A stretch of 64,000 bases of DNA from Chlorobiota bacterium (lineage in GTDB: Bacteria; Bacteroidota; Ignavibacteria; OLB7): the NCBI GenBank assembly GCA_028287785.1, contig JAQBOZ010000017.1, forward strand, positions 1-64,000, in the 5' to 3' direction. The notes beneath the pieces were generated by a model. That model saw only the letters and a program-made list of their open reading frames with translations. It did no database searches and was not told the DNA's origin. Within the stretch, counting starts at the first letter, position 1; each line of letters begins with the position of its first letter. The position numbers were made by a program, and so were the translations under genes. Shown here piece by piece: positions 26,640-30,261 of this stretch.

Positions 26640-26668
26640 TCGTGATTCGCGGAAGCGATTCAAAACAG

Positions 26669-26705
26669 AGCCCGACGGTTCTCACAAACCGCCGGGCTTT
26701 TTTTA
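26669..26705 (+). terminator. Intrinsic terminator after pnp
   Basis: AGCCCGACGGTT CTCACA AACCGCCGGGCT then TTTTTTT. Confidence 0.85.
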
Positions 26706-26926
26706 TGGCACCGATACTTGATGAAATGTGGTATGTGCCAAGATTGCGTCAGAGGTGTAATCCGCCATTTCTCCGCCATGTGACGTCGTAGAGTACAACC
26801 CTGCGACAAACAGTACTATTTCGGTACAACTCCAGTTCTTATAGCTGATAACAGAAGGGGCCTTTGAACGGAAGCCTATAAAGGGCTTTTTGATAGGCTC
26901 ATTTAGTATAAACGGCTGAACACTTA

Positions 26927-27411
26927 TTACCCTGTTTGACACAGCCCCCCCTGACTATAGGTTAGTGATACCCCCGTTTTAAGACAGGTTCCGGTTACCA
27001 CAGTGCCCTCTGCCATACTTAAACGTATTTTATACTTGCATTGGCAGGAATAGCGACAACAGTCTTCCCCTCGCCGAACATCAGGTGTTTTAAAAACACA
27101 ATCACCATTTGGACATCCGCAAGCATTTGGTCCGGTCTCAGAAGTTTCTCCACTACCGCCACTGTAGCCCGATTCCCCCCCCCAGTATAGCTCCCACCTC
27201 CGAGACCTCCATGCCCACCAAAAAAACCTGCAAAGTCTGATCCCCACATTCCATCGCCAAAACCAAAAATTGGGCCGTCGGCTGTCCAGTCCCCTATGTT
27301 CCCACCAACAAAAGGGGGTGGAGGTGGCACCTCATTACGCGCTAACATTAATCGAGGGGTGGCTAGCAAGAGAAAAATAGCAGCCGAAATTATTACAGTC
27401 AGATATTTCAT
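26927..27411 (-). pseudogene. Small secreted Gly/Cys-rich protein, frame broken at a G9 tract
   Basis: ATG at 27411 gives signal peptide MKYLTVIISAAIFLLLATPRLMLARN... to SYTGGG. The other frame continues ESGYSGGSGETSETGPNACGCPNGDCVFKTPDVRRGEDCCRYSCQCKYKIRLS...GGLCQTG to 26927. The frames join across 27175..27183. Confidence 0.6.
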
Positions 27412-27420
27412 TATTGTTCT

Positions 27421-28521
27421 CTACTTGTTAATAATGATTTTTTTTACCCCGACAATACGATTTCCACTGAGGAGAGCCACGAAATACATTCCGTTGCCCG
27501 GAAATGTGTACTGTGCCTCCCCTATCCCCTGAGGGCTGGGGCTAACGTATGGCTCAAAAATGAGCGCGCCAGACGCATCATATATGGCAACCGCGACAGG
27601 TGCGTCACCCGCTGGAGAGAAATTTATGATGACCGTTCGTTGAGATTGATCAAGGAATTTCACCGACAGAGCTCCGGTCATCGTTTCATGATTGCGGTCA
27701 GTAAGGTCTTGAACTGCCACCTTTGGGTATCCACCAGAGAACAGTTCCTTCCACGGATAGAAGAGGCTGTCACTATCCTCAACCCGGTGGGACAGACCAA
27801 TCGTAACCTCATCCTTCCGAACGAACCAATACCCGCCACTGCCATTAGAGTATAACAAGCTTCTCATATATACTTGAACCCCATTCAGCGAAGAGGGAAC
27901 GATATACTTCACGATTGCCATCAGCGGCCGATCTCCATAGAGAACCGGAACGCCCGGCGTTGTTCGCGGTAACGCACCGAGGCTATCAAGGCGTGCCGCG
28001 CGCTGATGATTGGATGTGCGAACGAGTTCCACCGTATAGTTCAATGTGTCCAGAGCGCGGTAGTTGTTTGTGTCCCGTCCACCACCCGTCGTGGGATCAA
28101 GCCAGCCTAATTCCCGGTAAAATCGGACTGTGTCACCTGTATGAACAGTGAACGTATCCGTTGCGCTCTGGAATGAAAGAACGGCATTGTGCGCATTTAC
28201 AGCGCGTCCATCTTCCCAAGTTTTCAGTCTGAGTTTCGTGCTATTTTTGCGGCATTCTGTAATTGTGTAATCGATGCGGGCGGTAGAATCATACATCATA
28301 GTATATGTATATGCCTGAGAAATTTCCATTGGATCGGTGGTGTCACCTGAAGCCTCAATGCGATATACCGCTGTACTATCATCCAGTAGTACCCATAAAT
28401 CAGGATGACTCTAATACGACCAGATGGAATCCTGTGCAACCGCCTGCAAAGCAACAATACACAACAGAATACCCGCCATTCCAATACATGTCGATATCCT
28501 GATAATCTTCGATCGTTCCAT
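27421..28521 (-). pseudogene. Secreted protein with T9SS-like C-terminal domain, interrupted by in-frame TAG after the signal peptide
   Basis: ATG at 28521 preceded by GGAGG: MERSKIIRISTCIGMAGILLCIVALQAVAQDSIWSY*SHPDLWVLLDDSTAVYRIEASGDTTDP-MEISQAY... in one frame. TAG at 28413..28411. C-term AVAIYDASGALIFEPYVSPSPQG...NGMYFVALLSGNRIVGVKKIIINK. Confidence 0.75.
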
Positions 28522-28600
28522 CACAACCTCCGGATACAAGGTTTAATTATATGTGCATACTCCCACTGAATAGTATATGATTGCCGGTGCTGATGTTATA

Positions 28601-29209
28601 CTACAGGCAGTCAGCAACTCCCATAACTGAACTGCAGCCTCGCCAGAGATGCCTCACCGAGAATAAAGTAATGACCGAATGGCATGGTGCGGTACCCGTA
28701 TAGCTACTAAGAATCCCGATGCAACCCGGACATTTAGCAAACACAACAGACCGATGAACAGCAGTAGGGCTCTCGAGCGAGAGCATCACAGGAGTGATAT
28801 CGATAGGTGTCCTGTGACGGGCATGAACATAAATAACAGAACAATTTGAAACAAGGGCGCTCCCGTTGCATCCATTGGATCATTGTCAGCTCCTGATCAG
28901 AATAGAGTTGCGCGCTAACGTGCCCCTTCGATCAACCTGCACGTAACCGGACGGATGCCACCGGTAGTCCCCGAGCTTATAAACACACTGATCTCCTTTC
29001 CACCGGCCTTCAAACTCTGGTTCGGCACCATTGGCTTGCGTTGTTCCCCGGACAGAAATGTTCCATGTGAACGTGATTGCCGAGCCTCGGGTTGAAGGCT
29101 CGCTCCGGGCGTCTCCTCCACAGAAATCCATCAAAAACAAAAAAAAGGAATAAATCCCAGGAAATTCCAAATTAATTCCCCGAAAAATCAAGAGAAAATT
29201 ATTTCCCAC
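28601..29209 (-). pseudogene. Possible decayed small secreted-protein gene
   Basis: One minus frame of ~200 codons is open except for two TGA codons three codons apart (...ARNSILIRS*Q*SNGCNGSALVSNCSVIYVHARHRTPIDITPVMLSLESPTAV...). No homology recognised. Confidence 0.3.
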
Positions 29210-29283
29210 CCATGTCTACATATGGACCTGCCCTCCAGAAAGCGATGGAGGGCCCTTTACGGAGGAAATTTTTTGAGGCCTCA

Positions 29284-29323
29284 AGAACCCTTGAAACTGA
29301 GCAAATTTCAAGGGTTCTGTTTT
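29284..29323 (+). terminator. Strong intrinsic terminator-like hairpin with no + strand gene upstream
   Basis: AGAACCCTTGAAA CTGAGCAAA TTTCAAGGGTTCT GTTTT. Confidence 0.6.
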
Positions 29324-29543
29324 ACCGAAAACTCTGTTTGGCAATTGGCTGCGTCGATCGGGGAGAGATGGGCTGAAATGCCGGGCGATCAGGGGGACCG
29401 CGGGCGTCGGGTATTCATCCGATGCACCTTCCGGCTGGTGCAGGTGGTTTCACTGCTTCAACAGACGAGACGTGGTGAATAACGGCCCGCCGCATCGAAG
29501 ATGCTCGGCACCTATGCACCGCACGGTACACCGCCGCAGCTCC

Positions 29544-29854
29544 GGTAGTGACCCAGGTTGAGATGTTGTAGAGGATTCCCCGAGTCATATCCGGCATCAG
29601 TCTTCCCAGCCCCATGGGGGCGTACCGGTTGCAGCAGCATCACACCTTCCGTAATTCCAAGCTCCAGAGGAGCGTACAATCCTCGCATGCCGATAGGATC
29701 GTACGTTCCTCTGGAGCTTGAGTGGGAAAGGAGATATCGATCCTACAACCGGCACGCTCCCGACGGAGCTTGAAGAATGAAGAGAGGATCATCGATGGAT
29801 CATTGCGCTGTCAACCGGAGAGCTGGATTCAACGTGAGTCACTACCGTCGGCGC
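29544..29854. repeat. ~311-bp degenerate direct repeat, unit 1
   Basis: Shares GGTAGTGACYCA..GTTG, GGCATCMGTCTT..CAGCCCCATSGGGGCG..CGGTTGCAGCA, CTACAACCGGCRCGCTCCC..GGAGCTTGAAGARTGAAGA with unit 2. Confidence 0.65.
29658..29720. repeat. 26-bp inverted repeat (2 mismatches, 11-nt loop)
   Basis: CAAGCTCCAGAGGAGCGTACAATCCT / AGGATCGTACGTTCCTCTGGAGCTTG. Confidence 0.8.
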
Positions 29855-29870
29855 GGTAGTGACTCACGTT
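29831..29870. repeat. Perfect 17-bp inverted repeat at the repeat-unit junction
   Basis: AACGTGAGTCACTACCG TCGGCG CGGTAGTGACTCACGTT. Confidence 0.85.
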
Positions 29871-30165
29871 GGGAAGAAGTTCATGATGGCTGGAATTCCG
29901 GTCAGCATCCGGCATCCGTCTTGACAGCCCCATCGGGGCGAATCGGTTGCAGCAATGCCACGGCTTCGATGATCCAGCGAACCATTCCCATATTCATGAA
30001 GAACGGTAAGGTTCAGATGGAGCTGGCGCGGGACATGGGAGGATTGTTTCTACAACCGGCGCGCTCCCATGGAGCTTGAAGAGTGAAGAACAAATCGATC
30101 ATCGTCCAGCAGAGCGGGGGATGGACTCAGCATGAGTCACCACGGCGCCGACGTTTAGGTTCTTC
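29855..30165. repeat. ~311-bp degenerate direct repeat, unit 2
   Basis: See unit 1; conserved blocks recur at offsets of 308-311 bp. Confidence 0.6.
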
Positions 30166-30183
30166 GGCAATCGCACGATTCCT

Positions 30184-30191
30184 TATCTTTG
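30184..30191 (+). promoter_or_regulatory. Candidate -7 box TATCTTTG upstream of guaA
   Basis: Matches TAnnTTTG; 71 nt upstream of the guaA start. Confidence 0.35.
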
Positions 30192-30261
30192 CCGTTTCCA
30201 TTCATTGTAACCTCCGCCGGTATGCTCCGTAGCTGCCGGCTTAACTCCAGTAGATCTACCC

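Follow-up and report, generated by a model that had tools for sequence, protein, structure and literature searches.

Genes and frame breaks at the locus

The window (the whole 64,000-nucleotide stretch of DNA that was analysed) carries a pair of adjacent genes on the minus strand, a partner gene and, directly downstream, a small gene. The features discussed below are as follows; G001 is a sister genome of the same genus, L079, L085 and L087 are intact relatives in it, and the C15 copy is a second copy of the small gene in the window's own genome.

26640..30261, no strand: pnp-guaA segment holding the pair, 3.6 kb; the interval is ~0.2 kb in G001
27421..28521, minus strand: partner gene, signal peptide and T9SS type A sorting domain (TIGR04183; five-copy family in G001)
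28411..28413, minus strand: in-frame TAG cutting the partner after its signal peptide; relatives read through
27184..27411, minus strand: 5' part of the small gene, with signal peptide (called by eye), PPPPPFVGGNIGDWTADGPIFGF motif and start of the Gly linker (profile match to, and alignment with, intact G001 proteins)
27175..27183, minus strand: G9 tract, first frame break, in the Gly linker (sequence; tract absent from L079 and L085)
26952..27174, minus strand: Cys-rich domain in the shifted, true frame (profile match; dN/dS against the C15 copy, no stops)
27019..27174, minus strand: unshifted, Cys-free tail, an out-of-frame artefact (counterpart absent from intact relatives)
26945..26951, minus strand: G7 tract, second frame break, of opposite sign (sequence; homology changes frame there)
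26899..26944, minus strand: 3' end of the small gene in the original frame (aligns with the C15 copy; matched separately by the profile, E 1.1e-4)

A sequence-only reading of this DNA had proposed that a G9 homopolymer separates a signal-peptide, Gly-rich frame from a Cys-rich frame, that G10 would enter the latter, and that the unshifted frame is also open with a tail free of Cys. These three observations are confirmed. On the minus strand, TATACT-G9-AATCGG occupies 27183..27175. The ORF at 27411-27019 (130 aa) starts with MKYLTVIISAAIFLLLATPRLMLA and a stretch rich in Gly, and its tail, which includes TVVAIPANASIK, contains no Cys. The Cys-rich frame is open over 134 codons from stop to stop, ending at 26927, and its Cys domain includes the peptide TPDVR. 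Setting the tract to G10 in silico joins the signal peptide, the Gly linker and the Cys tail. A G9 tract alone is not rare, as the 4.75-Mb genome holds ~40 runs of at least nine G.

That reading had missed the G7 break, the TAG in the partner, two further copies in the genome and the intact relatives in the sister genome. Past G7, homology returns to the original frame, giving GCVKQGNKCSAVYTK* and ending at 26899. With G10 alone, the product is a 161-aa protein that has most of the Cys residues, lacks the conserved last segment and ends at the second break. Because of this break, one tract-length change does not restore the complete gene, and the full 170-aa form requires both tracts to be changed.

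Intact relatives and the C-terminus of the small protein

G001 encodes three intact relatives, L079 (173 aa), L085 (169 aa) and L087 (169 aa), whose genes lie directly downstream of copies of the partner gene. In each, the signal peptide, a GGNxGDWxxxGPxFGF motif, the Gly linker and the Cys domain form a single ORF. A profile including these proteins matched the 5' part in the window with E 2.8e-34 and the Cys part with E 5e-27; the window sequence makes up one of its four rows, and the independent support is the alignment with the intact proteins. Since the intact one-ORF homologues carry the Cys domain, the Cys frame is the real C-terminus of the small protein; the Cys-free tail, by the same comparison, is an out-of-frame artefact.

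The C15 copy points the same way. In the Cys frame it is 54–59% identical to the window, has no stops and keeps every Cys of the compared blocks. dN/dS between the two was 0.45 here; the two alternative frames, each interrupted by stops, gave 0.69 and 2.87. These values compare two degenerate copies over 62 codons only. Codon scores did not tell the frames of the small gene apart, owing to its atypical composition.

The two frames flanking G9 are thus halves of one protein, as the intact homologues show, and only this part of the two-frame interpretation survives. The evidence does not support a switch between alternative, meaningful C-termini. Nothing in the intact relatives corresponds to the Cys-free tail, and sequence comparison found no G tract at the junction in L079 and L085, the sister-genome comparison that had been suggested as a check. 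Moreover, G10 alone ends wrongly at the second break, the partner holds a nonsense codon, and only remnants are left of the two further copies in the genome.

A two-gene secreted cassette

The partner sequence reads MERSKIIRISTCIGMAGILLCIVALQAVAQDSIWSY, then the TAG, then SHPDLWVLLDDS..., and its relatives read through at the TAG. Downstream of it, the partner ORF at 27421-28329, directly upstream of the small gene, is otherwise open (302 codons); the TAG severs a signal peptide from a T9SS-domain ORF with which it forms one ORF in the G001 relatives. The C-terminal domain resembles that of T9SS type A sorting domain proteins (TIGR04183/PF18962): it scores 25.1 bits with the NCBIfam model TIGR04183, above the curated cut-off of 23, and 14.7 bits with Pfam PF18962, under the cut-off of 27. 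The pair differs from these in that neither the remainder of the partner nor the small Cys-rich protein has a Pfam match above cut-off. Beyond the T9SS domain, Pfam searches above cut-off and PDB sequence searches found no match to either protein, an NCBIfam search with the partner likewise added none, and the small protein itself showed no T9SS domain. An AlphaFold model of the partner had a pLDDT of 68 (moderate) and Foldseek matches with TM ~0.2, which were set aside; the model of the small protein, with a pLDDT of 35, was too poor to use.

The partner family has five copies in G001, and related genes occur in further families of the class. There, a protein of ~350 aa is followed just downstream by a small Cys-rich ORF with a signal peptide at ~15 of 20 loci judged by eye; the exceptions are L134, L136, L140 and L142, which have no clear partner, and L132, which is cut by a contig end. 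These relatives were found via the partner gene and not via the Cys-tail profile, which gave no match in a GTDB contig scan and, among 396 genomes of the phylum, matched only its own genome. When plasmids were searched with L154, an intact partner from G001, no match appeared. We conclude that the small gene belongs, as its downstream member, to an apparently undescribed two-gene secreted pair present in several families of the class. As to function, the pair may at most be described as a protein exported to the surface together with a disulfide-rich companion outside the cell. In one genome (G146:C8, L143, 16884-18245), a 454-codon open frame appears to combine partner sequence with a Cys-rich tail, possibly a fusion of the pair.

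Probable decay of the window pair

The pair in the window is most likely a pseudogene in progress. Compared with intact homologues it carries, as expected of a pseudogene, three independent inactivating lesions (frame breaks at G9 and G7 in the small gene and the nonsense TAG in the partner). Decay is favoured because of the intact homologues, the G7 break, the partner TAG and the state of the two further copies in the genome, both truncated: the C15 copy lacks its 5' half and has lost its stop, which it reads past, and the C11 copy is missing its signal peptide and has become joined to what is left of a partner gene. It is favoured also because the family decays without G tracts (a remnant in G001:C9, a frameshift in L144, a stop in L143b), because the segment between pnp and guaA is present here and absent from G001, and because of its lower G+C content (48–49%, against 59–61% in the neighbours). 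Upstream of the pair, at 29543-30100 of the window, lie diverged repeats of ~30–60 nt; similar repeat sequence occurs just before the C11 remnant (L128, ~2600-2730), possibly as a dispersed repeat linked to the cassettes.

When intact, the first gene would encode a Sec-exported protein bearing a T9SS sorting domain, and the second a small Sec-exported protein that combines a Gly-rich linker with a Cys-rich domain, the latter probably disulfide-bonded. In the window copy, the TAG stops the first gene after the signal peptide, and the second has lost its frame at two G tracts through shifts of opposite sign. These frame losses most likely arose from replication slippage no longer removed by selection, and the product as sequenced would be a 130-aa protein that lacks the Cys domain and ends in a meaningless tail. 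We infer that slippage produced the frame losses and that the population is fixed for these lesions, which would be irreversible. Against decay, the lesions are few, every Cys of the compared blocks is kept and the partner ORF is otherwise open; decay would therefore be recent or incomplete. G tracts would also be expected of a phase-variable gene.

Alternative explanations

Contingency loci of Campylobacter and Neisseria switch by tract-length change. If the window gene behaved in this way, a change in the length of G9 at replication would toggle the Cys domain, on at G10 and off at G9. The tract does sit in a gene for a secreted protein, and a change to G10 by itself brings back 161 aa, most Cys residues included. 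Frame-changing repeats or tracts are found in two other genes: the same linker of the G001 paralogue L087 holds a 22-bp array of 4.5 copies, and a secreted-protein gene on contig C7 is out of frame at a G10 where three close paralogues are intact. Yet the full protein also needs a change at G7, the partner carries a nonsense codon, the tract is missing from the intact L079 and L085 and the other copies in the genome are truncated, so we regard phase variation at this locus as unlikely.

The array in L087 lies at 811-909 (G001:C26), in the Gly linker of an intact paralogue, and its copies are 98% alike; since its unit is not a multiple of three, a change in copy number would shift the frame. 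The repeat is not kept in place among homologues, as L079 and L085 have none and the array of L087 is unrelated to G9. A broader possibility is that the undescribed multi-copy pair, a T9SS-sorted protein with a small Cys-rich secreted one, repeatedly gains frame-changing repeats in its Gly linker (G9 here, the 22-bp array in the sister genome) that toggle the Cys domain. To this we attach rather little credence.

Sequencing or assembly error at both G tracts would leave the gene intact in the cell. Both breaks fall on G runs, the genome is a 37-contig draft, and long G/C runs lie at the ends of contigs C3 and C12 (G000:C3:50769-50798 and G000:C12:1-9), as if assembly had halted there. Set against this, ~18 other G9/G10 coding tracts keep the same best frame on both sides, a count based on codon-score classification and not on gene-by-gene homology, with L055 checked by eye. 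G9 is therefore not generally miscalled, which argues against a systematic tract error, and a homopolymer error would not explain the TAG in the partner. We consider error at both tracts improbable.

Programmed ribosomal frameshifting or transcriptional slippage at G9, yielding both tails, can be dismissed as very improbable: the tract holds the slippery pattern G GGG GGG with both frames open downstream, but downstream RNA structure is not unusual (z -0.21 and 1.05), neither the tract nor the alternative tail is conserved in intact homologues, and the shifted product still ends at the second break. Programmed frameshifting was accordingly rejected for want of a stimulatory structure and of tract conservation, and ribosomal slippage, which the sequence-only reading had put forward, fails for the same reasons.

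Relation to known systems

The closest parallel to the probable decay of the window pair is in the capC/capD autotransporter genes of Campylobacter, which have poly-G tracts and show lineage-specific decay (PMC7168839). For inactive capC genes, the authors favour progressive, lineage-specific formation of pseudogenes over phase variation (PMC7168839). In both cases the genes encode exported proteins, have tracts of ~G9 and are intact in some lineages and inactive in others; as in capD, the tract of the window gene lies inside the coding sequence. In contrast, the proteins are unrelated, and many strains were compared there, against one genome and its relatives here. A full-text literature search found no paper joining homopolymer, phase variation and type IX secretion.

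What the analysis exposes is a conserved two-gene cassette for secreted proteins, apparently without a name, which occurs in multiple copies and turns over fast, with frame-changing repeats arising in one linker. Should reads reveal a mixture of tract lengths, the locus would add a contingency gene to a lineage that has been little studied. The gene on C7 is a cleaner candidate for phase variation than the window G9. Its G10 (G000:C7:2256-2265; L067, L159) breaks the frame of a secreted repeat-protein gene just after the signal peptide, and the paralogues L160, L163 and L164 read through without a tract; the case fits phase variation, decay or error.
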